From positions 1 to 35,680 of the forward strand of contig JAIORV010000152.1 in the NCBI GenBank assembly GCA_021107945.1: a stretch of 35,680 bases of DNA. The letters are read 5' to 3'. This document shows, one piece after another, positions 5,472 through 29,454 of the stretch (positions within the stretch are counted from its first letter, which is position 1; each line of letters opens with the position of its first letter). This stretch comes from Vulcanimicrobiota bacterium. GTDB taxonomy: Bacteria; Vulcanimicrobiota; JAJTBE01. The notes under the pieces were generated by a model that had not been told where the DNA came from, made no database searches, and was given only the letters and a program-made list of their open reading frames with translations. Position numbers and translations under genes: made by a program.

Positions 5472-5472
5472 A

Positions 5473-6649: not shown

Positions 6650-6833
6650 ATCAACCCTCTCCTCCTTCAGATATTTTACGCAATTTTCAACCTTTTCCCT
6701 TGACGAACTTATATATCAACTAACTTTTTCCTGCACTTCTCTTCCCTGTATAATATATTATTTTCCTGGTATCCCCGTGAGAAGAAAGGCAGGGATGTCC
6801 ACGCTGAACAAGATAGAATATTAACAATCTGTT

Positions 6834-6850
6834 AACAATAAACGATTGTT
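6834..6850. promoter_or_regulatory. possible operator palindrome
   Basis: AACAAT-AAACG-ATTGTT is a perfect 6-bp inverted repeat with a 5-bp centre. It overlaps the -35 box of the predicted promoter for the phosphatase gene and lies in the divergent region between that gene and iolM. The position fits a repressor site. The regulator is unknown. Confidence 0.4.
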
Positions 6851-6875
6851 TGCACAGCGACCATCATGTTATAAT
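6846..6875 (+). promoter_or_regulatory. sigma-70-type promoter for the phosphatase fusion gene
   Basis: TTGTTT at 6846-6851 and a consensus TATAAT at 6870-6875 are separated by 18 bp. Transcription would start near 6882 and leave a leader of about 135 bases before the GTG start at 7017. The rest of 6650-6845 is the divergent intergenic region and shows no gene. Confidence 0.5.
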
Positions 6876-7016
6876 TGAAAGTGAGAAAATTGCCTTTTCA
6901 CAGGAAATTAATCGGGATATATTCCTGGATAATTACATCGGGAATGCAGGTTTTTCCGGGCTAACCAAAAGGAACGCCTGGACTTTTCTTTTAACTCAGG
7001 TAGGGGAGGATTTACG

Positions 7017-8768: not shown

Positions 8769-9353
8769 CCTATCACTCCGCCGGAGGATGCCTCACTGAA
8801 AAGAGTTGAACCTGAATACCTTGCTCATAGTTAATCTTTCAAGAATCGGAGCTTCTCTCATAAAAAAAACATCAAAAAGTCATCGCCTGGATTTCCTCGT
8901 TGGAGCAGTGTGACAGGTTTGCTGTGACTTTTCCGTTCCTGAAACAAGTTCAGGACAGGCTTCCCGGTACGACCTTCTCAGGAGCACCCTTCTATGAATT
9001 TTTCCATTTGTTGTGTATGTGCGGTTGTCGATATACATAGTGTCCATATTATATATATCAAACTACATGGCAATATCATTATCAAAGCTTATTCCATATA
9101 ATATTGCCTTTTTTTGGCTCCCCCCTCCAAGGCTAATCTTTCATGACATTTTTTAAGACAACACCCGGATTTTAATCGGGTGGTAGGACGATGCTCCAAC
9201 TTAGAGATTATTCTTGTGTATTCTTGTTCCCGATACACTATTAACCTTCAGAATCTGGAAGATCCGTTAAAGAACCTGGCGCGCTTCTTAACTTTTCTCC
9301 TTTCCCCCTAAAGATAAAATGAAAGCAAATCTTGGCCGCAGGGGAGAGAAAAG
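8769..9353. other. intergenic stretch with palindromic repeats
   Basis: No convincing gene is seen. The stretch holds a TCCTGAA/TTCAGGA palindrome at 8937-8955 (a common dispersed bacterial repeat) and a single CACCCG...CGGGTG palindrome unit at 9152-9184. An AT-rich tract near 9040-9110 carries no recognisable promoter pair that I can defend. Confidence 0.6.
9152..9184. repeat. single palindrome unit related to the 3981-4160 element
   Basis: TTTAAGACAACACCC, then GGATTTTAATCGGGTGG, repeats the left end and first palindrome of the element at 3981 with one inserted G. The other three palindromes are missing, so this is a solo or decayed copy. Confidence 0.7.
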
Positions 9354-9605
9354 ATGAATGCTTCTTTTAGGGAGAAAGGATCGGGGCAAAGAAAGAATAA
9401 CCTCTCTCCTTTCAACGAAGGTGTCTTACGGGATGTCCTGCCACCTTCAGACATCCTGGCACGCCTTTTTGAGCAGGCCAGGAAGATCAGGGCGAAAAGG
9501 TCGGAAGAAGAAGCCCGTCCCACTTCCCAAACAAAACTCCGAAAAAATCCCTATATAAAGTTGAGGCACATTCTTAATTCCTCCCTCCTGAATTTGTATA
9601 GGTAA
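9354..9605 (+). CDS. small basic hypothetical protein
   Basis: An 83-residue frame with ATG 9354 behind AGGGGAGAG at a good distance. The middle segment (SDILARLFEQARKIRAKRSE) could form an amphipathic helix. The rest is rich in Arg, Lys, Ser and Asn and has no known motif. The ribosome site is the only real support. It may be a spurious frame in the gap before the sugar kinase. Confidence 0.3.
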   Translation: MNASFREKGSGQRKNNLSPFNEGVLRDVLPPSDILARLFEQARKIRAKRSEEEARPTSQTKLRKNPYIKLRHILNSSLLNLYR

Positions 9606-9763
9606 GTGCAGAGTCGGAGCGCAATACCCGGGGGGGAGCAAGAGCGATATTCCATTCTCTGCCTGTGGAGGAAATGAATCATGAAAAAGCGGGGATTAAG
9701 AAGAACAATAAAGCTCTTCCAGCCCTTAAAGAAAAGTAGTAAATATTTTTGGAGGTGTTATCA

Positions 9764-10741
9764 ATGGACCATATTTCAATTGTAGGCTCTGTATGCTATG
9801 ACGTGGGAGGCATAATATCAAAAGCTGTCGGCGGCAAGATATTCATTGGACCCGAGATCCTCAGATCGCCCGGTGGAGCTCTTTTCCACACCGCCCGCTA
9901 CCTGGGATCTCAGAACCTTTCAGTAGCCGTGAAGACATTTGTGGCTTTGGAAAAAGATGTATATGGCGAAATGATCAAAAAGGAGCTCAAGGAGCAAGGA
10001 ATGGATATCAGCCACCTGAAGGAGGTTGAAATGTCAACCAACTTCTCGGTATTCGCCCTGGATCCGGAGACAGCGGAAAGGATTATCATTGTTATTGAGG
10101 GTGCTATCCGAAAATACGAGATGAATTTTAAGGATTATTACACAATTGGAAAATCTCGAGCTGTCTTCCTTACGCATAGTTATGCAGAGGATTCGAGAGA
10201 GCAAATAAAAGAGATTGCCAGGATATGTCAAAAAAAAAATCCAATCTTCTGCCAGATGGGGAAAACTCAGTATGCTTTTGGAATGGAATTCCTGTCGAAC
10301 ATCGCACAAAAGGTGACTTCAATCCAATTCAACGAGGATGAAGCTAGGCAGGTACTCAATATCAAGAACAACCCGACAGGTGTTCAGTTGGCAACGCGGC
10401 TGGTCGAAGAGCTGCCGGGAGTGCCTATCATCAATTTGACATTCGGAAACGGGGGTTCCATAACATACGACCGGCGCACTGACTCATTCCACACCTCCGG
10501 CATTCATGTCGTTGATTCCGTAAACTCGGTGGGAGCGGGTGACATCTTTTTCGCCAGCTTCAACCTGGAGTTCTTACTCTCCGGTGGAGACACTCAAAAA
10601 GCGTTGTTAACCGCCCGCGCCTCTGCAGCCCAAAAGACCACGGGGGAAATTCTCAAAAGGGATGAAGTTGCAGGTTTCCAGAAAAAATATCCCGCTCTTC
10701 CGATTGTGGTGCAAGCTGCTTCCAGAAAGGCCGCCGCCTGA
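9764..10741 (+). CDS. PfkB-family carbohydrate kinase
   Basis: A 325-residue ribokinase-fold kinase. Visible landmarks are the N-terminal DHISIVGSVCYDVGG, the substrate-side SPGGALFHTARYLG and the C-terminal signature NSVGAGDIFFASF. The last contains the catalytic-base Asp and the anion hole that binds ATP phosphates. I start at ATG 9764 because GGAGG at 9751-9755 lies 8 bp before it; a TTG at 9749 would sit on that ribosome site. The family phosphorylates sugars, nucleosides and, in some members, inositol. Given the inositol genes 3 kb away, inositol or a keto-deoxy-gluconate are possible substrates, but the sequence alone does not decide. It stands alone on its strand. Confidence 0.85.
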   Translation: MDHISIVGSVCYDVGGIISKAVGGKIFIGPEILRSPGGALFHTARYLGSQNLSVAVKTFVALEKDVYGEMIKKELKEQGMDISHLKEVEMSTNFSVFALDPETAERIIIVIEGAIRKYEMNFKDYYTIGKSRAVFLTHSYAEDSREQIKEIARICQKKNPIFCQMGKTQYAFGMEFLSNIAQKVTSIQFNEDEARQVLNIKNNPTGVQLATRLVEELPGVPIINLTFGNGGSITYDRRTDSFHTSGIHVVDSVNSVGAGDIFFASFNLEFLLSGGDTQKALLTARASAAQKTTGEILKRDEVAGFQKKYPALPIVVQAASRKAAA

Positions 10742-10830
10742 CCGGGATTATACAAAAGAGGGAACCAGCTACTTTTGTGAGCCGCTTCCCCTCGGGCAAC
10801 CCTCTCGATGCGTGTTTTATTGAAGTCTAT

Positions 10831-11200
10831 TTATGCAACACAGACAAAGTTCTTGCCGTTAATGGCCACCTTCTCGGCAAATCTCAATGAGCCTAAGACG
10901 CCGGGATGATCAGGGTTAATGATGAGGGCATTCATAAAAGCGTCTCGTACCGATCTGAACCTGCCAAGCTTCAGAAAACCTATTCACAGACAGTAGTGAA
11001 TGAGCGCAGTCTCCCTGAAGCCGGGGGCATTCTCAATCATTCCAATAAGTCGAGTAATTCCTTCCCGAATCTTCTCCCGGCGCCCTGAGATGAAGCTCCG
11101 CCCGATCACCTACCGCAGTTCTGACAGATATTCTTCACTGGTTTTTCCTGGCACTTCACTCACCCTTTTCGCAAAGTATATAGGGGAGTGATTGTGATTG
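10831..11200 (-). pseudogene. TPR-like protein remnant with two nonsense codons
   Basis: One continuous minus-strand frame reads IYFAKRVSEVPGKTSEEYLS, then IREGITRLIGMIENAPGFRE, then GFLKLGRFRSVRDAFMNALI and NPDHPGVLGSLRFAEKVAIN. It is interrupted by a TAG after SELR and a TGA after HYCL where a Gly codon would fit. It ends at TAA 10831-10833. The LG..A...N..HP spacing is that of a tetratricopeptide repeat. Coding quality remains good between the stops, so decay looks recent. The upstream limit near 11200 is uncertain. Confidence 0.55.
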
Positions 11201-12588: not shown

Positions 12589-12635
12589 CCTGAAAATCAA
12601 ACAAATAGCTCTTGAAAATGGCTGGAGGTATAGAA

Positions 12636-14108
12636 ATGCAAAGGGTAAATTGTGCCATATATGTTCGAAAATCCACGGAGAAGGGATTGGAGCAGGAGTT
12701 TAATTCTCTCCACAACCAGGAGGAAGCTTGCAAGAACTACATCCTGTCCCAGGCATTTAACGGGTGGGAATACTACAGGACTTACGAGGACGGCGGTGTC
12801 TCCGGCGGGACGATGAAACGCCCGTCTCTCAAAAGAATGCTTCTTGATATGAAGAAGGGACTTGTTCAGACTATTGTGGTTTACAAGGTGGACCGCCTCT
12901 CAAGATCCATTATCGATTTTCACAATATGATGAAGGAGTTTGAAAAATACAACTGTAGCTTCGTTTCCATCACACAGGCATTCGACACCTCCAATTCTAT
13001 GGGAAAGCTCACTCTCAATATGTTGCTCTCGTTTGCTCAGTTCGAACGGGAGGTCTCTGCGGAGAGAATCCGGGATAAGATTGCCGCCACCAAAAAGAAA
13101 GGGTTGTGGACAGGGGGATGCCCACCGCTGGGTTATGATCTGTCGGAGAAGAGGTTGATTCCCAATCCGAAGGAGGCGGAGCATGTCAGGTTCATTTTTA
13201 AGAAATACGTGGAGTTGAAGTCGCTAATCAAGTTGAGGAAATTTCTATTGAACACTGATGTAAGAACCAAGAAATGGACCAGTAAAACCGGTTTAAAGAA
13301 AGGCGGAATGGTATTCTCCCGCTCCATGCTGTCCCGTTTGCTTCGCTCCAAGGTTTATATCGGTAAAATCGAGAACAAAAAAGACGGAGTCTCATACCCT
13401 GGAAAACACCAAGCTATAGTGAGCAGAGACCTTTTCAACAACGTCCAATCGCTCCTCGATAACAATCGGAAGAATAGGCTGGAAACATATAGCCGGGATT
13501 CGTTTCTTCTATCCGGCAAGATATTTGATGAAGGTGGGAAGCCATTTAAGAATGAGAAGGGGACAAAAAACAAGGTGAAAAAGTATCGATATTACGCACA
13601 AAAAGGCAGGTACCTTCCCGCAGGCGATTTTGAGGATATCACCTTTGAAGTTGTAAAAGATTTACTGAACTGTCCGCTGAACAAAATCCTTACCGACGGA
13701 CAGGCGCTTGATTTCAAGCAGATTGATTTTGACGGACTGACTTTGCGCAAACAGGCAGATTTGATCAGAGCTATGATTTCAAGGATTATCTATCACGATG
13801 AAAAGCTGACCTATTTTATCAATGTTGACGACCTGTCATATCTCAGGTCATTCGGAAAGAAGGATTACATCAATGTAAAAAGTGACGAAAGCGACGCCCG
13901 GATATACCTTGCCGGGGACAAGAAAAACCTTGTTGTCGAGAAAGATATACTACTCGCCAGCCGACCTTCAACGAATCAATATATCGGGGACGGCAAAAAG
14001 ATCATTACGGTATCCGGAAACAACACAAACCTGATAAAAGCCCTCAGCGTCGGATGGAGATATGGGAAAATGTTTATGGGAAAATGTTTAATGAAGGAAA
14101 AACAATAA
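12636..14108 (+). CDS. large serine recombinase, C-terminus frameshifted
   Basis: The resolvase-type catalytic domain spans residues 1-150: CAIYVRKST with the nucleophile near Ser13, EDGGVSGGTMKRPSLKRML, YKVDRLSRS, and FAQFEREVSAERIRDKIAAT. A recombinase domain follows (CPPLGYDL, SRSMLSRLLRSKVYIGKIEN). ATG 12636 is chosen because GGAGG ends 7 bp upstream; ATG 12618 and TTG 12612 lack one. The frame ends 14108 in MGKCLMKEKQ, an artefact of a 14-bp duplication at 14062-14089. The natural C-terminus, a helix-turn-helix tail, continues in another frame to 14308. The catalytic part is intact; loss of the tail probably weakens function. Confidence 0.85.
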   Translation: MQRVNCAIYVRKSTEKGLEQEFNSLHNQEEACKNYILSQAFNGWEYYRTYEDGGVSGGTMKRPSLKRMLLDMKKGLVQTIVVYKVDRLSRSIIDFHNMMKEFEKYNCSFVSITQAFDTSNSMGKLTLNMLLSFAQFEREVSAERIRDKIAATKKKGLWTGGCPPLGYDLSEKRLIPNPKEAEHVRFIFKKYVELKSLIKLRKFLLNTDVRTKKWTSKTGLKKGGMVFSRSMLSRLLRSKVYIGKIENKKDGVSYPGKHQAIVSRDLFNNVQSLLDNNRKNRLETYSRDSFLLSGKIFDEGGKPFKNEKGTKNKVKKYRYYAQKGRYLPAGDFEDITFEVVKDLLNCPLNKILTDGQALDFKQIDFDGLTLRKQADLIRAMISRIIYHDEKLTYFINVDDLSYLRSFGKKDYINVKSDESDARIYLAGDKKNLVVEKDILLASRPSTNQYIGDGKKIITVSGNNTNLIKALSVGWRYGKMFMGKCLMKEKQ

Positions 14109-14871: not shown

Positions 14872-15138
14872 TTATCTATACTCCTCCAAACCATAATCAA
14901 CCTTGAGTTTATTCAAAGACTTGTTTTCATCCCCAAATATCACCGCAGCTTCCCCGATAAACGAGTTCTTTTGGCGGGAAAGCTGGTTGGGATGAAGTCC
15001 GTATTTAGATGCAATCTGAGATAACGATTGCTCTTCCCCCAAAAACTTCAGGATAACCTCAGCTTTGAACTGAGGTGATACTTTTATCGATTCTTTATTA
15101 ATTGGGGACCTCCACACCTTCTTTCTTGGTCTCCACAC
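14872..15138 (-). mobile_element. IS3-family transposase OrfA remnant
   Basis: An 88-residue frame whose core SPQFKAEVILKFLGEEQSLS, then QIASKYGLHPNQLSRQKNSF, is the helix-turn-helix of IS3-type OrfA proteins. OrfA provides DNA binding and is normally fused to OrfB by programmed frameshifting. No OrfB follows at 14872, so the element is 3'-truncated. TCCACACCTT occurs twice just upstream (15109-15134) and may be part of an IS end. The MWRPRKKVWRSPINKE leader is probably read from those repeats, so the true start is uncertain. Confidence 0.75.
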
Positions 15139-15353
15139 CTTAAATACTTTTATATATTGTCCGAATTTATGGGTCCACTAAAACCCCGTGTAAATTCCTT
15201 CTCAAAAATGTACAGTTTTTCCGAAAAATTCCCACTTAAAAATGTTCAGGTACATCTGTATCCTTGAGGCCACAAATATCGCGACGGCTTTGAATATGCC
15301 CTGTCAATAATTTAAACATTTTTTTTAACTGTTTCGATTCCTCTTTCAGGTTG

Positions 15354-15500
15354 TTAGCCGCCTTCCAGACAGATGTTTTCTTTTGATTTCTCTGCAACCG
15401 CCTCCTCTCTGACCATCCTGCTTTTGCCTTTTAGCCTATGACTTTCGCCTTTGAGGTAATAGACGTCGCCGTGGTGATGCAGTTGGTTAACTCTATCCTT
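15354..15500 (-). mobile_element. IS21-type IstB C-terminal remnant
   Basis: The minus-strand frame DRVNQLHHHGDVYYLKGESH, then RLKGKSRMVREEA, matches the end of IstB (DnaC-like helper ATPase) proteins, whose usual form is DRLLHHA..L.IKGESYRL. The N-terminal ATPase part is missing. The fragment begins exactly where the HD-GYP gene ends. Nearby AAAAATGTACAGTTTTT and AAAAATGTTCAGG (15204-15250) look like IS21 end repeats. The remaining 15139-15353 holds no other gene. Confidence 0.6.
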
Positions 15501-16542
15501 CAGAAAGTTTTTCTTTTGCCTCATCACTCATATCTATTTGTCTTGGTCTGGAATAATAGGCTTTAATAAATGCATCGACAACATCCGGATCAAACTGCTT
15601 TCCTTTTTCTGAAAGAAGTATCTTAATTGCATCGTCGGGATGTATTCCATATCTATAGGCGCGATCGCTTGTCATTGCATCGAATGCATCAGCGACAGCA
15701 ATTATTCTGGAACATTCTGGAATATCCTTTCCACTTTTTATGCCAGGATATGCCGGACGATCAACACCTTTCGTCTTTCCATCAAATCTTTCATGGTGAT
15801 ATTTAACGCAATCGGAGAATTTTTCCAGATGATAAACTCCCTCAACAATACTTGCACCAACTTCAGGATGTTTTCTGATCTTCTCTATTTCATCAACAGT
15901 TAATGGATCGATTTTCTGCAAAATCTCTTTGCTGACAATTATTTTTCCAACATCATGAAACATACCAACAGTCCACTTATCTTTTTCTTCTCTTTTATTA
16001 GTACTAGTACTTTTTTTCAATTCCCTCAATATTGCAATACAATTGATAGCAACCCTTCTTGAATGCCCCTTTGTAAAATTATCGATTCTCTCCAAAATAG
16101 AGCAAATTAATTCATATAGCTTTCTCCCCCTTTCTTCTTCCTGCTCCCTTTTGTTATCTTTATCTTTCTTCCTCTTGCATGCTTTTTCTATTTTGGCAAG
16201 CAACTGTTCTATCCATTTATCAATACCTTTTACTTGATATCCAAATGAATTTGGGTATTCCATTACTTCACCTGCATTTGGAATAGTCCCATATGCAGTC
16301 AATATTATAATCTGGGTAGTTACGTCTTGTTGTTTAACAAATTCTAATACTTCTATGCCGCTTTTATCATTATGCATCTTCATGTCAAGAATAATTACAT
16401 CAAAGTATCCCTCTTTATCCTTAAGAATTTCAATCGCGATATCTTCATCTTTCGCTGTAGATACTTCCCATTTTTTAAGTTTAAATTTCTGAGGAAGAGA
16501 TTCTCTTATGCCAAGATCATCATCGACTAATAGTATTTTCAT
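15493..16542 (-). CDS. response regulator with HD-GYP-type phosphodiesterase domain
   Basis: A protein of 349 residues. The N-terminal receiver (residues 1-120) has the acidic pocket LLVDDD and phospho-acceptor Asp53 in VIILDMKMH. A very charged linker (KRKKDKDNKREQEEERGRK) leads to an HD-GYP domain with GHSRRVA, the HD pair in MFHDVGKI (His196-Asp197), KHPEVGA, YHHERFDG and the closing AVADAFDAMTSDRAYR. Such proteins usually hydrolyse cyclic di-GMP. The GYP stretch is altered: DGKTKGVDRPAYPGIKSG replaces the usual DG.GYP.GL.G, with five extra residues and Ala for Gly. I start at ATG 16542, 9 bp after AGGAG; ATG 16551 almost touches that site. It is third in the operon, 20 bp after the large kinase, and likely takes phosphate from the kinases. 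Its last codons meet an IstB remnant, so the natural C-terminus may be lost. Confidence 0.85.
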   Translation of the reverse strand: MKILLVDDDLGIRESLPQKFKLKKWEVSTAKDEDIAIEILKDKEGYFDVIILDMKMHNDKSGIEVLEFVKQQDVTTQIIILTAYGTIPNAGEVMEYPNSFGYQVKGIDKWIEQLLAKIEKACKRKKDKDNKREQEEERGRKLYELICSILERIDNFTKGHSRRVAINCIAILRELKKSTSTNKREEKDKWTVGMFHDVGKIIVSKEILQKIDPLTVDEIEKIRKHPEVGASIVEGVYHLEKFSDCVKYHHERFDGKTKGVDRPAYPGIKSGKDIPECSRIIAVADAFDAMTSDRAYRYGIHPDDAIKILLSEKGKQFDPDVVDAFIKAYYSRPRQIDMSDEAKEKLSEG

Positions 16543-16562
16543 ACAATTCATCTCCTTTTAAA

Positions 16563-19500
16563 TTAAGTTCTACTTGACTTTGAAATTTCAGGGAAGAAAA
16601 TCAGGAAATTCGCACCTTCTCCCGGAATTCCATCTTCAAAAATATGTCCATCCATATATTCCACAAATAATTTTATAAGAGAAAGTCCAAGTCCAATAGA
16701 ATCATCTTTATTCCTTGTTGTATAAAACGGTTCGAATATTTTATTCTTGTCTTCACAAGGAATTCCATGGCCTGTATCTGATATTTGAATTTTCACAAAT
16801 CTTTCTCTTATCGGTAAATTATATTTCCAATTTTCTTCCCTTGTAGCGTTATTTACACCAATTCTGATCTCTACAACTTGTTCCATTAGGGTAGAGGCAT
16901 TCGAGATAATTTCTTCCATTATGTCAATCAGTTTATTTTCATCTGCCTGGATATATCCCACATTTTCTTCAAGATTGAAATATATCAAATTCTTCTCTGC
17001 TAATGATCCAAATGTGCTTATATGCTCTTTCACAAGCTTTGTGGGATTGACTATTGAGAATTTAAAATCTGGCCTTCCGGAAAATTCCTTGAATTCTTTG
17101 ATGATTTTTCTTATTCTTCCGATTTGGATGTCAATTTTATCAATGATCTTACTGGTTTTATTTAAGTCAATTACTCCTAATTCCTTTGCTTCATTGAAAT
17201 TGGAAATATGGACATCTATTGCAGAAAGAGGATTCATTATCCTATGAGATGATGAAGCGGTAAATTGCCCCAGTGCAGCGAACTTGGTCATCTCAATTTT
17301 TTCTTGCAACAACTTCCAACTATCTATTGCCGCTGCAGCCTGGTTTGCAAAAAGCTGAAGAGCGCCGGTATCTGCCGAAGTTATCGGTCTTGGGATATAC
17401 TTATTATCTACATACAAAGCTCCAATAGCATTTCCTCTGACTAATAAGGGAGCAATTGCAAATTCTGAAGTATCTATCTTCAATTGTCTCATACCTCGAA
17501 AGAATGAATCAGATTCACCAACTTCAGAGGAGTGGAATCTCTTGGCAGTCTGATTTAACATGACATCCAGGAGTATGTTTCTATCCTCAACAGGAAAACT
17601 CAGGCTCTTGACAGCTCTTGAAATATTAGAATTTTTAAATTCATCTTCCCTATATTCGAACTCCTGGACGACAACCTTAAAAGTTGAAAAAGGATCTTCT
17701 CCTTCCCAAAGCTTATTTCTAAATACTTCGTCAGCCTCTTTCTTCTCAATTGAACCAATGGCAAGTTCCCCCCTTACTTCTTTTGAGCCTTCATCTGTCA
17801 GGAAAAGAATTGCTCTATTAAATTCAAGACAACCTTTCATTGTTAATCCTGTCAAAATAAGAAAGAGATTTTTTAAATAATTCGGCTCTGTCTGGAGCAT
17901 CGGGCCAATTCTGTTCATTATCCTAAGTTTTCTTGCCATTTCCCTTTCCTGTTTCTGAAGCCTTTCGTTTCGAATGGCAACTGCCGCCCTGTAGCAAAAA
18001 TCCCTGATAAGATTGCAAAGCTTTGATTCAAAGAAATCATATTTTAACGACTTTAAACTCAAGACTCCAAATATCTCAAAATAGATTTTTTTAATTGATT
18101 TGGTGAATAATGAGTTTAGCACCAGGCGATTAATTTTCTGAATTTCTCCTCTACCAAGGTTTTTAATTCCCTTTTTATATAGAATAAGAGCGTCTTCTGA
18201 TATTGTATCATCAACAAATGATTCAGGAAGAAAGAATGTTTTATCCTCAATAATTCTATTCAAACTTCTTGTAATTATTTTCTTTAATTTTCCCTCAATA
18301 TCAGTATCAATGCCGATATTCCAATTGCTAATAATTGATTTACTTTCATTTTCAAGAAAATCCCATGTTCTTCTCATGCCAATAGTCTCTCGACGCTTCA
18401 AACAATCAAGAAAAGAATGCCAATCTAAAATATCATCTTCATTGAGCAATAGAAAACGAACAAAAATTGGAAATGAGGCAAAAGATTTTATTTTTTCTAA
18501 TTCCATTAAAATCTTTGGATCTTTTATACTTTTTTTAAAATTCTGAAATCGCTGACTATGTGCCTCGTCTTGAATGACTATTTCTTCACATGATTTCACC
18601 ACCTTGATTGAACCCCATTCTGGATCATTCCCTATATTTAAGACTCCCGGAGTTAACTTATAATATTTGCCCTCCCCGGCTACTTTTATTGCTTCATCCC
18701 CTACAACAAGTCTTATGTGACCTGCATCAGCTTGTGTAACATCCATAATCAACTTAAAAAGATGCTGAAGTTTTGACTCAACTCCTCCGTGCAAAAGTGC
18801 CAGATCCAACTCTCTGAGTTTATTAAAAGCTTCAGCTTCTTTTGTCATCTGCTCATACTTCTGAGCGGCTTTCAAGTTATATGCGGCAACCTTAACATAA
18901 TCCTTGAGACATTGCGAATCTTTAACTGAGAATTTCTTGCTGATTTTGCGGACAATATTATGAGGATATATGCTCTCAATGATAAGCCTATTTAATCTAC
19001 GAATATCCCCCTGGGTCAGGACTATTTCTTCACTTCGCCAGAGTTGATTGCAATGTTCCGGATAATTTATATCCTCCAGGACTTCCTTATCAAAGAAGTC
19101 TCTTTTCTCGATAATCCTATTCAATGTAGAAATCACACTTACTTTAATGCCATCATCAATGTCTTGAAGTGGCTTGATTCCAGGTAATTTAGGCTTTATT
19201 TCTTCGTCCATATTTTTAAATATTAATTCTTCCACATTTTTTTCAGGCTCCCTCAGCTTTCTTAGAAATGAATGCCATTTGAAATCATCAGCCTGAAACA
19301 ATGCAGGCCCATTGTCAACACATATACAACCAATTGTTTCATTTTTCACAATCATTGGGGAGACAATCCACTGTTCAATCTCATCCTTTTGTAAAGTGAC
19401 CCATCCTGTGTGTTTCCCATCTTTTTTATATCTTCTGATATCGTCTCTGTTAAAGATTGTCGGACTCTCTTTGAGCTTGGCTTTTTCCCAATAAGGATTT

Positions 19501-20489
19501 CCTTCTATTGTAATTCTGATGCCACAAGGTTCGGGTTCGTGACCAATTGATTTCTTCAATACAATTTCTTTGCCATTCGGCGATGCAAGGTATATCCTTG
19601 CATGATTATAACCAAGGTCCCTGATTGCATTTATAATTGTATCAATTCTCTCCCCCAGGGATTTTTCGGATAACTCTTCCAATTTCGATAGCATACCTTT
19701 TAAGTTTGCAATTTCATTGATATCAATAGTTGATAATATAGCACCAATTACTTCGTCGTCATCATTTCTCACAGGCATGGAAGTGACACGGACAAATCTT
19801 AAACCGTAAGCTGTCCTGAGAATTAGTACTTTTTGTTCGTCTTTCCCTTCTTTGAATGTAATTTTTGCGGGACAATCCTTGCATGGAGTCATTCTTGCAT
19901 ATTCCTGCAGGAAAGCCGCCCAGCACGAGCCGGAGGGTTTGGGATCCCCACCGAACATTTCAATATGCTTTTTATTTCTATACCATATACCATACACTCT
20001 ATCAATAATGCAGATTCCTGTATCAAGATTATCGAGAGTTTTATGGAGCCATTTTACACCTTCTTGCCTTTGGCTCAATTGCTCATCCATATCATTAAGG
20101 GAATCTATATAAAACATCAGATGGTCAACAAATTCACCCACATTTTCCCTTTCAATATATTTATGAATACAACGGATAACACCGCTCTTTAATACTGATT
20201 TAGTCGGGATTTCAGTCTTCCCGCTGTAAAGGATTATTTTAGAATCAGGCGACTTATCTGCCAATTTTGGAATAACCTTGGGATCAATTGCCCCATCCTC
20301 CAGGACATAATCAATAAGAATATAATCAAATTTTATACCGCTTCTATCTATCTCTTGAAGGGCTTCATCGGTTTTCTTAAAGCTTCTAATAATATACCCC
20401 CTTCTTTCCAGGGGACCGGTTAATGCCGATAACATTGATTTATCATCGTCAATAACCAGGATTGCCATTTTATTCTCATTTGTTCCCAT
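16563..20489 (-). CDS. hybrid sensor histidine kinase REC-PAS-GAF-GAF-GAF-HisKA-HATPase
   Basis: A soluble protein of 1308 residues without membrane segments. The receiver spans 8-128 (VIDDD, phospho-acceptor Asp60). A PAS domain at about 145-260 carries PCKDCPA (Cys203/Cys206), a pair seen in some redox- or metal-sensing PAS domains. GAF-like domains lie at about 275-545, 555-845 and 860-1060. The first two contain a related helical insert at about 405-545 and 690-845; shared positions are LNRIIE..FF and G[DE]I..[LI]NRL. The kinase core has His1082 in SSSHRIMNPLSAI, an N-box around Asn1197 (EEIISNAS), DTGHGIP at 1238, IFEPFYTT and IGLGLSLIKL. Arg follows the phospho-His where Glu or Asp is usual. 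AAGGGA precedes ATG 20489. It is second in the operon and presumably senses two or more small ligands and signals to the HD-GYP protein. Confidence 0.88.
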   Translation of the reverse strand: MGTNENKMAILVIDDDKSMLSALTGPLERRGYIIRSFKKTDEALQEIDRSGIKFDYILIDYVLEDGAIDPKVIPKLADKSPDSKIILYSGKTEIPTKSVLKSGVIRCIHKYIERENVGEFVDHLMFYIDSLNDMDEQLSQRQEGVKWLHKTLDNLDTGICIIDRVYGIWYRNKKHIEMFGGDPKPSGSCWAAFLQEYARMTPCKDCPAKITFKEGKDEQKVLILRTAYGLRFVRVTSMPVRNDDDEVIGAILSTIDINEIANLKGMLSKLEELSEKSLGERIDTIINAIRDLGYNHARIYLASPNGKEIVLKKSIGHEPEPCGIRITIEGNPYWEKAKLKESPTIFNRDDIRRYKKDGKHTGWVTLQKDEIEQWIVSPMIVKNETIGCICVDNGPALFQADDFKWHSFLRKLREPEKNVEELIFKNMDEEIKPKLPGIKPLQDIDDGIKVSVISTLNRIIEKRDFFDKEVLEDINYPEHCNQLWRSEEIVLTQGDIRRLNRLIIESIYPHNIVRKISKKFSVKDSQCLKDYVKVAAYNLKAAQKYEQMTKEAEAFNKLRELDLALLHGGVESKLQHLFKLIMDVTQADAGHIRLVVGDEAIKVAGEGKYYKLTPGVLNIGNDPEWGSIKVVKSCEEIVIQDEAHSQRFQNFKKSIKDPKILMELEKIKSFASFPIFVRFLLLNEDDILDWHSFLDCLKRRETIGMRRTWDFLENESKSIISNWNIGIDTDIEGKLKKIITRSLNRIIEDKTFFLPESFVDDTISEDALILYKKGIKNLGRGEIQKINRLVLNSLFTKSIKKIYFEIFGVLSLKSLKYDFFESKLCNLIRDFCYRAAVAIRNERLQKQEREMARKLRIMNRIGPMLQTEPNYLKNLFLILTGLTMKGCLEFNRAILFLTDEGSKEVRGELAIGSIEKKEADEVFRNKLWEGEDPFSTFKVVVQEFEYREDEFKNSNISRAVKSLSFPVEDRNILLDVMLNQTAKRFHSSEVGESDSFFRGMRQLKIDTSEFAIAPLLVRGNAIGALYVDNKYIPRPITSADTGALQLFANQAAAAIDSWKLLQEKIEMTKFAALGQFTASSSHRIMNPLSAIDVHISNFNEAKELGVIDLNKTSKIIDKIDIQIGRIRKIIKEFKEFSGRPDFKFSIVNPTKLVKEHISTFGSLAEKNLIYFNLEENVGYIQADENKLIDIMEEIISNASTLMEQVVEIRIGVNNATREENWKYNLPIRERFVKIQISDTGHGIPCEDKNKIFEPFYTTRNKDDSIGLGLSLIKLFVEYMDGHIFEDGIPGEGANFLIFFPEISKSSRT

Positions 20490-20538
20490 TTTAATCCCTT
20501 TCTATACTCAACCGCAAAAGAATTGTCATCTTAATTGG

Positions 20539-20554
20539 CAGGCATGAATGCCTG
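20539..20554. repeat. short palindrome between the two kinase genes
   Basis: CAGGCAT-GA-ATGCCTG has 7-bp arms and a 2-bp centre in the 159-bp gap between the kinase genes. It continues as TGTGCTACGAGTTTTGCG, as in a dispersed repeat often seen between bacterial genes. Its form is like the palindromes at 3981-4160. It could act as a weak attenuator or processing site in the operon message. Confidence 0.55.
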
Positions 20555-20648
20555 TGCTACGAGTTTTGCGACATTTTTTATGATGACAAAATATATTCAC
20601 AGGAGTATAATGGCAGATTTTATACAGAGTCACTATTAAATGATATAA

Positions 20649-22997
20649 TCAGTATTTGCCCGGAATCTCAAGGCAAAAGGTTGATCCAACAAACATAATA
20701 CTTTCTGCTACTGATAGGTCTCCGCCAATTCTTTTGGCTATCCCCCTTGCAAGGGATAGTCCTATTCCAAGTCCTTTTTCCTTTGTCGTGTACATGGGTT
20801 GAAAAATTTGGTCAAATCTTGGATCAAAATTTCTTCCATGTATTCCGGGTCCCGAATCCTGGACAAGAATCCTCACTCTGTTTGCCTGTTTGTTAACCGG
20901 CTCAATTCTTATTAGTACCTCACCCTTTTTTCGGAAGAAAAGAGAAATCTGTTGTATGGCATTTATTACGAGATTAAATAATACCTGTTCCGCCCCGACA
21001 TCAATTTTCAGGTCTTTATCTATACCTTCATCAAACTGTGGGTCTATTTTTGCGCCTGATTCTCTTGCAAGAGGCTTTGCTGAATCAACGACATTCTTTA
21101 TAATTTGAACAAGAGGAATGAATTTTTCTCTTCCTTTCTTAAATAATCTGAGAAAAACATCGGCAGTCCTATGAATATTATCTTTTTCAAGTATAATATC
21201 TTCTAAAGTGGGATATAAAAGATCCAAAGATTTACCCTTTTCTTCTATATCCTCAATTCGCGCTTTAAATTCCTTTACAAATTCTCCAAATGCTGCCATC
21301 CTTGTATTTAGCTCATGTCCCAAGCCTGCTATCAATTGTCCATCAACTATGAACTTATGTTCCGACTCCACCCATTCATATAACTTCTTCTTGAAAATAA
21401 GTGATTCAATTTGTGCCGCATAAGCCTTAAATTTCTCATAATTTATTTTCTTAAGAGCGTTTATATCTTTATAAAATGCAAAGAAAGAATAGCCAATTTC
21501 TGCCGGGACATGGAGTGGTATTCCCATGCATGAATCAAAGAATAAAACTTTTCTTAAATACCGAAATTTGCCAATTCTTTTTGAGACATTTTGAGAATAA
21601 ATGATATGCGGTTTATCTTCAAGAACATCTCTTACGGGACTATATCGCATTTTATCTGAATTGTTATAAAATCTTTCTTCATCTATTTTTTCCTTAATAC
21701 CATCCTCATCTACTTTTTCCTCAACACCATATTTATTACAATATGCAAAAAGCTCAGATCTGTATGTTATAGGATCAAGAGTTATTATGGCAATATTATC
21801 GGCAGATATTTCTTTTCTCAATTTTTCGAGCATTTCAGTTATTTCTTTCCTGAAGTCCTTATCTTTTTTTTCTATTACTGAAGAACTAAAAAAAATGGGA
21901 GAGGATAACTCAGGCTCATCTGACAATCCCCTATTACAACCAATTCCTTGTTGAATTTCACCTTTTAACGCCTTATCCAATGCCTCTTCAAGTTCTTCAT
22001 CGGTAAAAGGAAGGTAAATAAATCCATATATCTTTAATCCGCATATTCCTATCTCATGAGAGCTTTCAAGATTTCCAGTCATCAGAATTACTTTGGAATA
22101 ATCCTTTTCCTCCAGGATTTTCTCACATGCCCACTTTCCCCCATTTGTTGGTATTGAAATATCCATTAAGATCACATCATAGTCAAATTCTTCCGTTTTC
22201 TTCACAGCATCTTCTGCAGTCTCTGAGGTATCAACTCTATTAAATCCTAACCTTTCAAATTTACTTTTCATTGCATCCAAAAAAGGTGGATCATCATTTG
22301 CGATAAGCACACTGCAATTATCAGGAACGGTGAATGTGCTATGTTTTGTCCTGGCAACATTTGATTCGGAAAATATAAAAGGTTCTCCCTGGCCTGAAAT
22401 TGCCCTGTCTGGATGGATCTTTACATCTTCAATAATCCTGAGGTATTCTTCAATACTGACATCAATTAATCTTATAGAAGGATCTACTTTCTTTATTATA
22501 CCAATTACATAATCCCCGGACATAATATTTAGCTTAATATCGTCTTTTTTCTCCAGTCTCTCCTCTTCAACTCCATCTTCATAATAATTTCTGACTTCCT
22601 TAATAGGTAACCTTGCTGATATTCCTTCTTCTATTTCTCCTACGGCATAATCCCCACTAATTGAATTGATATGTAATCTTACAATTTGTCCCTCGTTATA
22701 GTCAAAGCTATCTCTTTTCCAGGGATCGTCTCTTGCAATTCTCCAGCTAAGCTTTAACCTTTTCCCTTTCTCATATACAGCAAGGACATAAAAGTCTTCT
22801 TCACTTCCCTCTTTTAGTTTTGGTACATTTTTTTCTTTAAGTTCCTTCGACCAATTAATTTCCCTTTGATGAACTCTCCCCGACCAATTATTTTCAATTT
22901 TAACAACAACATAATTGGGGTATCTCTTTATTACCTTCCCCTTTACTATATCTCCCTCTTTATACCTTATTTCATTTTCTTCTTTGACATTACTCAA
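20649..22997 (-). CDS. S1-S1-receiver-GAF-histidine kinase fusion
   Basis: A soluble protein of 782 residues. Residues 14-86 (EGDIVKGKVIKRYPNYVVVK, then WSGRVHQREINW) and 101-182 (EGQIVRLHINSISGDYAVGE, then ARLPIKEV) have the pattern of S1/OB RNA-binding domains; the second is more diverged. A receiver follows at 228-346 with LIANDD and phospho-acceptor Asp279 in VILMDISIP. A GAF-like region spans about 365-540. The kinase core shows His561 in AGLGHELNTR, the N-box NLVINAIQQ (Asn679), DSGPGIH at 714, IFQPMYTT and KGLGIGLSLARGIAKRIGG. No membrane segment is present. It is the first gene of the operon, with an AT-rich 190-bp leader up to the IS fragment. S1 domains normally bind RNA in ribosomal protein S1, RNase E and PNPase, so an RNA or nucleotide ligand for this kinase is possible, but that is inference. 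Confidence 0.85.
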   Translation of the reverse strand: MSNVKEENEIRYKEGDIVKGKVIKRYPNYVVVKIENNWSGRVHQREINWSKELKEKNVPKLKEGSEEDFYVLAVYEKGKRLKLSWRIARDDPWKRDSFDYNEGQIVRLHINSISGDYAVGEIEEGISARLPIKEVRNYYEDGVEEERLEKKDDIKLNIMSGDYVIGIIKKVDPSIRLIDVSIEEYLRIIEDVKIHPDRAISGQGEPFIFSESNVARTKHSTFTVPDNCSVLIANDDPPFLDAMKSKFERLGFNRVDTSETAEDAVKKTEEFDYDVILMDISIPTNGGKWACEKILEEKDYSKVILMTGNLESSHEIGICGLKIYGFIYLPFTDEELEEALDKALKGEIQQGIGCNRGLSDEPELSSPIFFSSSVIEKKDKDFRKEITEMLEKLRKEISADNIAIITLDPITYRSELFAYCNKYGVEEKVDEDGIKEKIDEERFYNNSDKMRYSPVRDVLEDKPHIIYSQNVSKRIGKFRYLRKVLFFDSCMGIPLHVPAEIGYSFFAFYKDINALKKINYEKFKAYAAQIESLIFKKKLYEWVESEHKFIVDGQLIAGLGHELNTRMAAFGEFVKEFKARIEDIEEKGKSLDLLYPTLEDIILEKDNIHRTADVFLRLFKKGREKFIPLVQIIKNVVDSAKPLARESGAKIDPQFDEGIDKDLKIDVGAEQVLFNLVINAIQQISLFFRKKGEVLIRIEPVNKQANRVRILVQDSGPGIHGRNFDPRFDQIFQPMYTTKEKGLGIGLSLARGIAKRIGGDLSVAESIMFVGSTFCLEIPGKY

Positions 22998-23187: not shown

Positions 23188-23853
23188 TCAAACCTGTCTT
23201 CCAATATCGCCTCTCTTATTCTCCTCACAAGGTTCAATGAAAAATGCAGGTTGTGATATGATGCAAGTCTGGGGCCCCAGGACTTCGCCTGTTATAAAGA
23301 GGTGGCGGAGGTATGCAGGCGTCCGGTATTTTAAGCTCTGATGGGGTCTTTCGTTGTTGTAAAAAACAATATACCCCCTGATGCCCGCCCGTGCTTCCCG
23401 TGGAGTCGAATAATCCTTCAAATACACCTCCTCATACTTCAAACTCCTCCAAAATCTCTCGGAAAAAATGTTGTCGATGGCACGGCCTTTGCCATCCATG
23501 CTTATCAATACATTTCTGTCCTTCACAAGCTCAATATACTTCGAGCTTGTGAAATGGCTCCCCTGGTCGCTGTTGAATATGGCCGGGCAAGACCTGGAAA
23601 AAGCCCGCTCCACAGTTTTAAGAACAAAGGGCATTTCAAGTGTCTGGTCCAACTCCCAGCTGATGATAAATCGGGAATACCAGTCAATGACGGCGACCAG
23701 ATACATCCACGACTTTTGGAGCTTGATATAAGTAATATCTATTCCCCAGACGTGGTCGGGGCGCTGGACCTTGACATCCCGCAACAGATAAGGATATACT
23801 CTGTGTTGCAAGTCCCGCTTGCTCAGATTGGGACCGGGATGGATAGCAGGATA
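23188..23853 (-). mobile_element. IS3-family transposase OrfB, 5'-truncated
   Basis: About 220 residues of an IS3-type integrase-core transposase. The frame opens with IHPGPNLSKRDLQHRVYPYL, the stretch just before the catalytic domain. It then shows WGIDITYIKL with the first Asp, FNSDQGSHFTS with the second Asp, and FSERFWRSLKYEEVYL with the Glu of DDE. The last 30 residues follow the usual NNERPHQSLKYRTPA. The N-terminal 60 or so residues and OrfA are missing, and no start codon is in place; the first ATG-like codon would be internal. At about 23850 the sequence changes at once into a methyltransferase frame on the other strand. It is inactive. Confidence 0.8.
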
Positions 23854-24686: not shown

Positions 24687-25320
24687 TTGTTTATCAAAAA
24701 CCCAATCATATCAGGTAAATACTATTTTGTTGAAAGGACTACCGCATTGATTGACGACAATGAAAAAAAACGGATAAATAACAACTCAAAATCGGTGGCA
24801 ACCATGTTTAGAGTCAAAAAGGCTCAAACTCGTAAATGGGTGCCCCAACCTATGCTAAATGGAAGAATTGATTGGAGATACCTTTCGGATATTCTTGAGT
24901 TATTATACAAGAATCCGAGACATGGTAATCCCGATGATCCCCTTGATGATCTTATCTATGTAATGCTCACCCGAAAGTCACCCATTGATATGGCCCCTAA
25001 GATTTTCAAGAAATTAAAAGAGAAATATGAGAATTGGGATAATTTGCTACAAGATTCTCAAAACAATTTAATAAATTTGCTTTATGGAATCGGACTTGAG
25101 GAAATCCGGGCAAAGGATATCACAGATACGCTTGAGATAATTAAAAAGGAATTCGGCTCGCTATCACTGGATCCACTGAAGAAATGGACAAATGATAGGT
25201 GTCTCAGACTCCTCACTTCCCTGCCAGGAGTTGGCACAAAAACTGCTCGCTGTGTAATGATGTACGCTCTTGGTCGAAATGTTTTTCCCGCTGATGCGCA
25301 TTGCACCAGGCTTACCCGGG
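24687..25320 (+). pseudogene. HhH-GPD (endonuclease III-like) glycosylase, 3' part lost
   Basis: The frame shows the endonuclease III fold: DPLDDLIYVMLTRKSPIDMA, then the helix-hairpin-helix LLTSLPGVGTKTARCVMMYA with the GVG loop, and the catalytic-Asp region VFPADAHCTRLTRD. After this the homology ends; the rest of the frame to 25487 is antisense to a vsr gene. The iron-sulfur or C-terminal helices are missing. The start is open: TTG 24687 or ATG 24804, and the recognisable fold begins only after the latter. Glycosylases of this kind often accompany methyltransferases to repair T:G mismatches from deaminated methylcytosine. It is probably inactive. Confidence 0.75.
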
Positions 25321-25454
25321 ATATCTTTCCGGTGTATCCTATAGCGAAAACCTTTCCTATAAAGCAAGGATCGGATAAGTCTTTCCGGTTTTGTATTGCC
25401 GGAGCGGATTCGGCTCAAATTATAGCTTCTTTTATTTCTGTTCATTTTATTCAT
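25309..25454 (-). pseudogene. vsr: Vsr (very short patch repair) endonuclease, 5' fragment
   Basis: Minus-strand residues after the ATG at 25454 read LSRIRSGNTKPERLIRSLLY, then RKGFRYRIHRKDIPGKP, the well-known N-terminal half of Vsr. It is expected to continue D..F......IFVHGCFWH. Instead it enters the antisense of the HhH-GPD gene at about 25309, so the catalytic and zinc-binding half is gone. The ATG overlaps the stop codon of the HNH frame by 8 bp, showing that the two were one operon. Vsr nicks T:G mismatches at sites of 5-methylcytosine. Confidence 0.8.
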
Positions 25455-25877
25455 ACCGATTCCTCTGTTCTTCCATCATTGCTCTGACCTTTTCAATTTC
25501 ATAAGGCGGTTTCTTGAGATGAATAATGGCATGACAATTGGGGCAAACCGGGACAAGATCCGTGGCAGGGTTGATCCCGTAAGATCCATTAAGCGGAAAA
25601 AGGGGTTTGGTATGATGAATATGAATAAAACCTTCTGCAACAGAACCATATAAATTACTCGGATTCAGTCCACAGACAGAACAAATGACACCTTTGATTT
25701 GGAGACATAAAGCCCTGTTTATCCTGCTTCTCTTATTCTGTAAGAACTCTCGCCTTCTTACTCTGCAATAACACTGTCATCAAAATCTTGTTGTATTGTT
25801 TCAAGAGGAAGAAGAGCAAGAGAAACTCCCAAGAAGTCGGTTATCCATGGTAGAATTGTTAGCAGATTATTCTCGAT
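25447..25877 (-). pseudogene. HNH endonuclease (McrA-like), frameshifted remnant
   Basis: Minus-strand frame, partly without a start codon. Up to about 25780 it reads RRREFLQNKRSRINRALCLQ, the zinc knuckles ICSVCG and VCPNCH, and the HNH core EGFIHIHHTKPLFPLNGSYG, then AIIHLKKPPYEIEKVRAMMEE, to the TAA at 25447. The layout is that of HNH restriction endonucleases of the McrA-like type. A different frame upstream, from 25877 to about 25766, reads LPWITDFLGVSLALLPLETI then QQDFDDSVIAE and is probably the preceding part of the same protein. A single-base shift near 25765 separates them. It overlaps vsr and is its operon partner. Confidence 0.7.
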
Positions 25878-26099: not shown

Positions 26100-28076
26100 A
26101 TGAAGCGAGAATATTATTCTGATTCCATTTCAAATTTCATAACATCTTCCATAGATGAAATAATTGGCAAATTAGCCATCAGTAATGATTTTTCATTGAA
26201 ACAAACACAAAGATATGCATGGGTGGAAGAAATTCGAATATTACAAAAAGCTCTTTCCCGCTATCAAGGCTCTGTATATTTCGAATATTCAATACCAAGA
26301 ATGGGACAACGGATTGATGTTGTGGTCTTGATTGGGCCGGTAATCATCGTCCTTGAATTTAAAATTGGAGAAAATGAATTTACTTCTTATGCTATAGAAC
26401 AAGTATGGGATTATGCATTGGATCTGAAGAACTTCCATGAATCGAGCCATGAGCATTACATTGCTCCGATTCTTATCGCCACTAATGCCAAAAATATCAC
26501 TCCAGTGATTTCCATAACCCCACAAAACGACAAATTGTTTTTTCCCATTAAAGGCAATGAGAAGTCGCTTTGTAACATTATTGACAATGTTTTAGTGTTT
26601 GCAGAAGGTGAAAATATTGAGCCTACATTATGGGAGCAAGGTCGCTATTGCCCCACTCCCACCATCATCGAAGCAGCAACTGCGCTTTACAATGGTCACT
26701 CAGTTGAAGATATCTCCCGTAGTGATGCCGGCGCAATAAATCTTAGCAAGTCATCAGACACCATAGATGAAATCATCAAAATATCAAAAACGAATTCTCA
26801 AAAATCAATTTGTTTTTTAACCGGCGTCCCGGGAGCTGGAAAGACTCTAGTAGGTCTAAACATTGCAACAAAAAACTTTGATAAATCTAATGAGATGTAT
26901 AGTGTATTCCTTTCAGGTAACGGACCGCTTGTTAATATCCTCCGAGAAGCTTTGGCAAGGGATAAGGTTAAACAAGGGAAAGAAACAGGCAAAAGAATAA
27001 AGAAAGGCGAGGCAATGAGTGAAGTCAAGATGTTCATCCAGAATGTTCATCATTTTCGAGACGATTGTCTTATCTCTCCTGAGACACCTCCAATCGAACA
27101 TGTAGCCCTATTTGACGAAGCTCAACGAGCCTGGGATCTTAAACAAACATCATTTTTCATGAGAAGTAAAAAAAACAAACCCAATTTTGATCAGTCAGAG
27201 CCTGAGTTTCTTATTTCCTGCCTTAATCGCCATCCAGATTGGGCTGTTATTGTCTGCTTAGTTGGTGGTGGCCAAGAAATCAATACAGGCGAAGCAGGAA
27301 TTACGGAATGGATAGAGGCATTGGATAAATCTTTCCCACATTGGCACGTTTATATATCGCCTCGACTTACTGATGCAGAATATGGCACCGGAGAAATTTT
27401 AAATACACTCTCATTTCATTCTAATATCAACTACTTAGATGATTTGCATCTTTCTATATCAATGCGTTCATTTCGAGCGGAAAATGTATCTCTATTGGTA
27501 AAACAATTATTAGACTTAGACAAGAAAGAGGCACAAAATACTCTTGAAGAAGTTGGAACCAAATACCCTATAGTTTTAACCCGTGATATCAACAAAGCAA
27601 AAAGATGGTTGAAAGAGCAAGCAAGAGGTTCTGAGCGATATGGAATGATTGTTTCGTCTCGAGCACAACGTTTGAAACCCTACGCCATAGATGTAAAGTC
27701 CCCCATGGATCCCATTCATTGGTTCCTCGATAGCAAAGAAGACGTACGATCATCTTTTTATCTGGAAGATGTGGCGACAGAATTTCATATTCAGGGTTTA
27801 GAATTGGATTGGATATGCGTAACTTGGGATGCAGATTTCAGATTTACTGATAAAGGTTGGGAATATCGATCTTTCTGCGGAGATCGTTGGAACTATATTA
27901 GGAAAGAAGACAGAAAGAAATACCTTAAAAATGCTTACAGAGTTCTTCTTACCAGAGCCCGTCAAGGAATGATAATAGTAATTCCTTCCGGTGATCTGGA
28001 GGATCCCACCCGTAATCCTGATTTTTATGATCCCACATACGAATATTTAAAAGAAATTGGTTTTAAGATAATTTAA
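26100..28076 (+). CDS. DUF2075-family nuclease-helicase ATPase
   Basis: A 658-residue protein. Residues 45-130 fit a PD-(D/E)xK-like nuclease: Glu62 in VYFEYSI, Asp73 in [10 protein letters not shown], and E86-F-K in [11 protein letters not shown]. The DUF2075 (Schlafen-related) helicase-like ATPase follows, with Walker [10 protein letters not shown] at 241-249 and Walker [14 protein letters not shown] near 335. A C-terminal motor half carries [16 protein letters not shown] and [21 protein letters not shown] 26100 has GAAGAGG upstream. The gene looks intact, in contrast to its neighbours. It lies directly before the ATPase/UvrD/drmAB block on the same strand, and the next frame opens 4 bp inside its end. 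Defence against foreign DNA is the likely role, inferred from domain content and location. Confidence 0.8.
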
Positions 28077-28787
28077 TGGAAAACTGCGGGGTATTCCACA
28101 ATTTTTCCAGCAGATCGAAACTGAGAGAAATACTGATAAGGATCGCATTCACAGCGCATATAATCGTAAGCATCAGAAAGAACCTGTATTGGAAGAGCTA
28201 GCAATACTGAGAAAAAAGATTGGAGAGCGTAATCTCGAAGAAAAACTTGGCAAATATCTTGGCAGAATCGAAACTCAATATAAAGAGGTATTGGATAGGC
28301 TTCTTACTGCTTCGGGTGCGGGATTGGCCCTTTCTGTTGTGCTCCATGAAGTTGAAAAAGGAATCAAGGAGTTGGATAGAGGATTGAATCGAAACCTTCC
28401 CTGGATCATTTACAGGAGCTTGCCAATCATTTAACTGAATTAATCGATGGGCTTACTTATCTTACAAGAAAGTCCGGAATGAGAAATAAAAAGTCCAATG
28501 TATTAATAAAACAGGTGCTTTTCAATGTTGGCTTTCGACTTCGCTACCATAAGATTAAGATTATTAATGAGATGGGACAAGGTGGCCCCATCTTCGAAGT
28601 AAAATGTTCCCGCCGCCTTATAATAGCAACCATGATGAATCTTATTGATAATTCAATATGGTGGCTTGATAACAAGGGATCAACAGATAAGCGAATATAT
28701 GTTGGAAGCACGCTCGATCTTCCACAATGTCCATCTATCATTGTTGCTGACAACGGTCCAGGATTTGATCAGGTCGGAATATCTTGA
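28072..28787 (+). pseudogene. histidine-kinase-like ATPase, frameshifted and 3'-truncated
   Basis: An open frame without a proper start (KLRGIPQFFQQIETERNTDK) leads into LDRLLTASGAGLALSVVLHE, an H-box-like helix. It breaks near 28400: LNRNLPWII is read in one frame, while LDHLQELANHLTELIDGLTY continues in the -1 frame. From there VKCSRRLIIATMMNLIDNSI (N-box) and IVADNGPGFDQ (G1 box) are clear. The homology stops at 28770, exactly where UvrD-helicase sequence begins in another frame. The G2 box and ATP lid are lost, so it cannot be active. Related ATPases accompany helicase-type defence genes. Confidence 0.75.
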
Positions 28788-29454
28788 TGTCTTTGATTCG
28801 CTAATAAAAGGCGGACTTTCAGGTGGGAAATGGGAGATTTACTCTGACTTCAGGAGACAGGCTATTTATTCTGAAATTACAGCTTCTGATATGATAAATA
28901 TGCTCGATTCAAGAGCTCAATTTACCAGGTTTCAATTGACTTATAACTGTCGCAATACACGCCCAATTGGAGAGGAGACATCATTAATTTCTGGATTTGA
29001 GACTCCTCCATTTTTACCGAACAAAATTGAAGGAATACCAGTTGAATACTTTTTTTATGGAAATCAGCGTGAAGAAATAAAATCTCTGGAAAAAATCCTG
29101 AAGAATCTAAAAAAAGCAGGAATTCCCTTTCGGAATATTACTATTCTGTCCCCACATAAATTTGATGGATCTATTGCATCAAAACTTGATAGTAATGATT
29201 ACTCAATAATTAATTTATTTGATAAAGCAGTGCTATTTCCAAGAAGGCGCAAGATTACATTTTCCACTATCCATGGATTCAAGGGCATGGAAAACTCATA
29301 TGTTATTATTGTTGATATTGATAGTTTGAGCGAGGATTATCAGAAGTGCCTACTCTATATCGGAATGTCAAGAGCAAGAGTGGGATTGTCATTATTGATT
29401 TCGAGGGAATCAAGAGATTACTATCGTGAACTTGTAAGAAAGAGTGTGGTGTAA
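28759..29454 (+). pseudogene. UvrD-like helicase, C-terminal portion only
   Basis: The plus-strand frame starts within the ATPase fragment at QDLIRSEYLDVFDSLIKGGL and runs to VRKSVV. It carries LTYNCRNTRPIGEETSLISG (motif IV-like), STIHGFKGMENSYVIIVDID (motif V) and LLYIGMSRARVGLSLLIS (motif VI). Walker A and B of domain 1 are absent. The junction lies inside GGATTTGATCAGGTCGG and suits a deletion at short homology. The stop at 29452-29454 is 2 bp before drmA, so the operon layout is kept. A working helicase is not expected. Confidence 0.8.

Follow-up and report, generated by a model that had tools for sequence, protein, structure and literature searches.

The window analysed here, a whole stretch of 35,680 nucleotides from contig JAIORV010000152.1 of a Vulcanimicrobiota bacterium (assembly GCA_021107945.1), carries three signalling genes on its minus strand. 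They encode kinase 1, an S1–S1-like–receiver (REC)–linker–histidine kinase of 782 residues (20649..22997), kinase 2, a REC-PAS-GAF-histidine kinase of 1308 residues (16563..20489), and a REC-HD-GYP response regulator of 352 residues (15493..16551). We favour, with fair confidence, the interpretation that these genes form an intact, horizontally acquired phosphorelay operon and that kinase 2 has additionally been invaded twice by an in-frame module. This in-frame insert is both better supported and more surprising than the defence-system reading of the operon offered by an initial annotation of the window.

Pfam matches in kinase 2 comprise REC, PAS, GAF, HisKA and HATPase domains. Two stretches of the protein, residues ~401–523 and 686–809, align with each other at a score of 115, while the best of 2000 shuffles reached 60. 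The first copy (18906..19316, minus strand; profile core 18948–19289) lies between the core of GAF1 and its last helix, and the second (18057..18461, minus strand; profile core 18087–18434) lies in the second GAF-like region. A profile from which the kinase 2 copies were left out scored 86 bits on copy 1 and 99 bits on copy 2. The initial annotation had described kinase 2 as a 1308-residue receiver-PAS-triple-GAF kinase; the length and the REC, PAS and GAF assignments stand, but two stretches of ~125 residues are inserted module rather than sensor. Such inserts distort annotation, in that kinase 2 appears much longer than its signalling domains need.

A two-row profile made from the kinase 2 copies located the module nine more times in this genome, in two genomes of the same phylum, G003 (twice) and G002 (once), and, weakly, in one other. 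The profile rebuilt with more copies detected the module 22 times across 1.53 Mb of this genome, always within an open reading frame (ORF); one of these occurrences, in L076, is weaker and shorter. In ~1.38 Mb chosen without regard to the module there were five copies, which projects to roughly 20 genome-wide, besides the clusters found directly. The host proteins in this genome include a PPi-phosphofructokinase, the PcrA helicase, Na/Ala (AgcS) and glutamate symporters, an O-mannosyltransferase, an NrtR-like Nudix protein and an AAA_15 ATPase, as well as ankyrin, TPR and beta-propeller proteins. In the relatives, the hosts are a C11 peptidase (G002) and ClpC and an O-antigen-ligase/TPR protein (G003). 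Inserts cluster locally at L076, where a 1183-residue membrane protein (5413–10866, plus strand) bears a full module and a second that is weaker and shorter, and adjoins another module-bearing gene. At L078 (contig C101, 7721–19446, minus strand), five tandem beta-propeller genes each contain one module copy in mid-gene.

In relatives of solved structure the host proteins run on without interruption. The PPi-phosphofructokinase has 123 extra residues where its relative in the PDB, 9dqm, is continuous at residue 307; PcrA has 122 extra residues where 1pjr runs from 546 to 550, and AgcS has 138 where 6cse runs from 181 to 189. For ClpC of genome G003, the module follows residue 791, close to the C-terminus. 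Module-free paralogues occur in the same genome for AAA_15 (49% identical) and for the TPR protein (68% identical). These alignments identify the module as an in-frame insert, and its scatter over unrelated hosts, together with the module-free paralogues, favours insertion as its origin.

The module is ~120–127 residues long, with a core of approximately DILDWxxFLxxLKxH...RIWxxLD...LNxIxxxKDFY...LLxKGxxNL...NRLLxExIYPxEI, in which a W, an N and an N-R pair are invariant or nearly so. Its copies share a mean amino-acid identity of 29.5%, with identities of 0.46/0.60/0.34 at the three codon positions, and the module is therefore translated, old and under constraint at the protein level. The closest pairs (52% and 49%) are neighbouring paralogous genes, and we saw no recent copies, which favours an old or dormant process. 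A distant relative was detected in a glycoside hydrolase from a Peribacillus plasmid (32.5 bits), which means that the domain probably extends beyond a single phylum. We picture the module as a separate, apparently helical entity that enters loops of unrelated proteins of this lineage in frame and is kept there as a translated domain.

What kind of entity this might be was weighed against several known types. Assignment to a known domain was rejected, since no Pfam, NCBIfam or convincing PHROG family matched. Inteins, too, interrupt conserved proteins such as helicases and ClpC in frame; however, none of 24 module copies had a Pfam intein match, the module shows no Hint match, terminal Cys or His-Asn, and its sites are loops, linkers or positions near a terminus, so the module was rejected as an intein. 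Rickettsia palindromic elements (RPEs) are repeats that sit in frame within many unrelated protein-coding genes of a single genome, a habit that the module shares. In contrast to the RPEs (listed in PMC2635572), the module is not short at ~120–127 residues, lacks palindromic structure, is constrained as a protein domain and shows only ~30% identity between copies. The longest inverted repeats in its DNA span 7–12 nt, the same as in shuffles, and a search for direct repeats or palindromes marking the insertions found none.

There is close to an even chance that the module is a useful shared domain, such as an adaptor or a tag for localisation or stability, and owes its spread to domain shuffling rather than to being a selfish element. 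The constraint seen at the protein level, the scarcity of identity between copies with none of them recent, the (near-)invariant residues and the Peribacillus relative all point this way. On the other hand, the hosts follow no evident theme, ranging over glycolysis, a helicase, membrane transport, secreted beta-propellers and a sensor kinase, and presence or absence of the module differs among close paralogues. More tentatively, it could be a protein-level genomic parasite, a coding element that spread or still spreads through in-frame insertion into the loops of essential enzymes. Such an element would be tolerated because its ends come together in the fold, might possess its own mechanism of insertion or removal, and would occupy some tens of proteins in one genome.

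The operon that received these inserts has its genes in tight order. All three ORFs are intact and no further substantial ORF lies among them on the minus strand; the coordinates and domain matches agree with the initial description of three same-strand signalling genes without others between, and Pfam detects a receiver in each protein, as had been claimed. The start of the kinase 1 gene is placed at a TTG codon because stop codons sit a few codons upstream. A gap of 159 bp separates the genes of kinase 1 and kinase 2, and one of 11 bp, containing AGGAG as a ribosome site ahead of the HD-GYP gene, separates the genes of kinase 2 and the HD-GYP protein. The longer gap holds a repeat, GTAGCACAGGCATTCATGCCTGCC, at 20537–20560 (minus strand); no second copy of this repeat (GTAGCACAGGCATTCATGCCTGCC / GTAGCACAGGCATTC...) was present in the loci compared. 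A short frame at 15354–15527 (minus strand), resembling the tail of IstB (LHHHGDVYYLKGESHRLK), overlaps the 3' end of the HD-GYP gene.

The N-terminus of kinase 1 resembles tandem repeats of ribosomal protein bS1 over residues 1–160. The first S1 domain (residues 12–85; 22743..22964, minus strand) matches Pfam PF00575 at E 3.7e-7, with 30.9 bits against a cut-off of 22, aligns with bS1 repeats, and retains the consensus S1 VH (His43) together with an aromatic residue at the RNA face. A second S1-like domain (residues 101–181; 22455..22697, minus strand) was missed by the Pfam search. Alignments to the NCBIfam rpsA models cover both domains (residues 9–161, 2.7e-16), and an rpsA-repeat profile scored 11.7 bits on residues 90–225 (best match 102–159), compared with a maximum of 9.5 in 1000 shuffles. 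By these matches the first is a genuine bS1-type domain and the second probably a divergent one. The domain search of the N-terminus bore out the earlier proposal of an S1-type start joined to a receiver and a histidine kinase through the PF00575, REC and HATPase matches, with the second domain divergent and Pfam-negative. Single-sequence AlphaFold models of kinase 1 (predicted local distance difference test, pLDDT, of 35 for residues 1–200 and 41 for residues 350–555) were too poor and were not used.

The receiver of kinase 1 (residues 230–340; 21978..22310, minus strand; Pfam REC 1.7e-16) has D235, D236, D279 and T307, and the conserved Lys is replaced by Leu329; because of this loss, it probably does not act as an ordinary switch. 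A linker of ~200 residues between receiver and kinase (21333..21950, minus strand) is GAF-like by layout only and had no Pfam match. The dimerisation and histidine phosphotransfer (DHp) and ATPase parts (20661..21350, minus strand) contain H561, N679, DSGPGI and GLGIGL, with an HATPase match at residues 668–779 (1.6e-15) and with boxes H, N, G1, F and G2 all present. The same five boxes are complete in kinase 2 (H1082, N1197, G boxes intact), whose receiver has D60 and K110, with Ser89 in place of Thr. Cytosolic histidine kinases with an N-terminal receiver (REC-PAS/GAF-HK) share with kinase 1 a REC ahead of the sensor modules, a DHp/ATPase unit at the end and the lack of a membrane segment; kinase 1 differs in beginning with bS1-type S1 domains and in its receiver without the conserved Lys.

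The response regulator has a REC domain at residues 6–99 and an HD_5 match at residues 152–324 (9e-26). Its receiver is complete (D10–12, D56, T85, K108), and an alignment with seven paralogues from the same genome and with 4mcw found all metal ligands of the HD domain intact; the protein is alignable to the solved phosphodiesterases 4mcw and 5z7c. The order REC then HD-GYP and the HD, GK, H, HH and D ligands are shared with cyclic di-GMP (c-di-GMP) phosphodiesterases of the RpfG/NosR class. The best NCBIfam match is indeed the NosR family (residues 112–338), at 141 bits against a cut-off of 400. The host genome encodes ~18 other HD-GYP domains and has 21 GGDEF matches, and therefore c-di-GMP signalling exists in this organism.

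Taken together, these features suggest how the operon would work. The bS1-like tandem OB region of kinase 1 may serve as a cytosolic input whose ligand is probably RNA, single strands or something related to the ribosome, and kinase 2 would read cytosolic cues via its PAS and GAF domains. From what is known of these families, phosphate from either kinase most simply ends on the receiver of the HD-GYP protein, so that both kinases, catalytically complete as far as their motifs indicate, would most likely converge there, and this receiver would switch hydrolysis of a cyclic dinucleotide, either c-di-GMP or a related one. With the conserved Lys absent, the receiver of kinase 1 more likely serves regulation or docking than output switching. 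The idea that phosphate moves among the receivers thus keeps its basis in three receivers and two kinases, but loses some of it with Leu329 in kinase 1.

Several points weigh against this interpretation. Pfam does not recognise a HisKA domain in kinase 1, though H561 lies in a good H-box. The GYP motif of the regulator is atypical, reading AYP after a 7-residue insertion, which, together with a score far under the NosR cut-off, sets it apart from the RpfG/NosR class; because of this motif we file the protein as HD-GYP-like rather than as a typical member. Cyclic-dinucleotide signalling as the output, as first proposed, remains plausible given the HD-GYP and GGDEF complement of the host, but is qualified by the altered motif. 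Functional coupling of the three genes is argued from adjacency alone, because no homologous operon occurred in any collection searched.

No full-length relative of kinase 1 was found in 388 genomes (the whole available phylum included), plasmids or viral contigs, and short exact patterns, which reach close relatives only, found none in GTDB contigs, where they returned two unrelated REC/HK loci. The S1-S1-REC part used alone as a query found only rpsA in the 388 genomes, and four weak S1 matches in other genomes were rejected as relatives, being plain rpsA on reading. For kinase 2, none of 149 genomes from the phylum gave a full-length match. The operon is known from a single example, with no second copy in the collections searched.

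This solitary occurrence bears on a rather unlikely alternative, in which the operon was put together within one lineage from ordinary signalling parts and caught its S1 region by chance fusion, the OB fold acting as an interaction domain and not as an RNA sensor. No S1-REC protein appeared in the 388 genomes, the few matches to residues 1–345 were ordinary rpsA, and the second S1 domain lacks the consensus residues. The first, however, keeps the Y/H/K positions of the consensus binding face, and the long intact reading frames imply selection.

Horizontal acquisition of the phosphorelay operon is indicated by its composition. Its GC content is 35.4%, compared with 41.9 ± 1.3% in sampled 7.5-kb stretches of the genome, none of which was as low, and its tetranucleotide use is likewise extreme. 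Upstream lies a 5'-truncated orfB of an IS3-family insertion sequence (IS) (23188..23811, minus strand), which shares 91% identity with a copy on contig C6; downstream lies an IS3-family orfA remnant of a different subgroup (14872..15177, minus strand). A composite IS transposon was rejected, as the two relics belong to different subgroups. A large serine recombinase (12612–14108, plus strand; nearest NCBIfam families CcrB and XisF) may mark the left end of an island. Foreign as this composition is, the operon has probably resided for a while in this or a related lineage, since the module borne by kinase 2 is typical of this lineage.

The presence of defence genes nearby was correctly noted in the initial annotation: DrmA and DrmB of DISARM, with a PDC-S41 Schlafen-type helicase, lie past the right IS relic on the opposite strand and start ~3 kb or more from the operon. 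Between PDC-S41 and DrmA are frameshifted frames with GHKL-ATPase-like motifs (28072–28787, plus strand; NLIDNS, IIVADNGPGF), followed by a C-terminal fragment of UvrD (28645–29454); both are probably broken genes of the DISARM locus. A DNA-glycosylase/endonuclease-III-like protein (24687–25487, plus strand) adjoins the DISARM genes.

The suggestion that the operon itself is an undescribed anti-phage system, with the S1 kinase as a sensor of phage RNA or of arrested translation and the HD-GYP protein acting on pools of cyclic nucleotides or nucleotides, draws on these neighbours, on the mobile surroundings (low GC, IS3 relics) and on the existence of two-component defence in Detocs (PMC11249213), but is improbable, as PADLOC gave only weak receiver matches for the operon proteins (E 1e-4 or worse), no known type of defence effector domain is present, no recurrence beside defence genes was seen because no relative was found, and an IS remnant and the opposite strand separate the operon from DISARM. 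Detocs and the HEF_HK/Response_reg_2 systems (PMC8011034), two-component elements from defence or restriction settings, also place a kinase plus receivers close to defence genes. Detocs, however, fuses a nucleosidase-type effector to a receiver, for which none of the three operon proteins has a Pfam match, and PF19191 (HEF_HK) and PF19192 (Response_reg_2) are absent from them at E up to 1. A defence link beyond adjacency to DISARM is not supported, and a single example without recurring context cannot carry the claim of a new defence system.

Overall, if the interpretation of kinase 1 is true, an S1-led histidine kinase, on which we found no paper in the literature, would couple RNA or translation state straight to a phosphorelay, an input of which we likewise found no report. 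The module, which leaves the reading frame unbroken in the phosphofructokinase, PcrA, ClpC and transporters that it interrupts, constitutes a natural experiment in insertion tolerance. It is either a coding mobile element of a new class, far exceeding RPEs in size, or a shared regulatory domain that the databases have missed.

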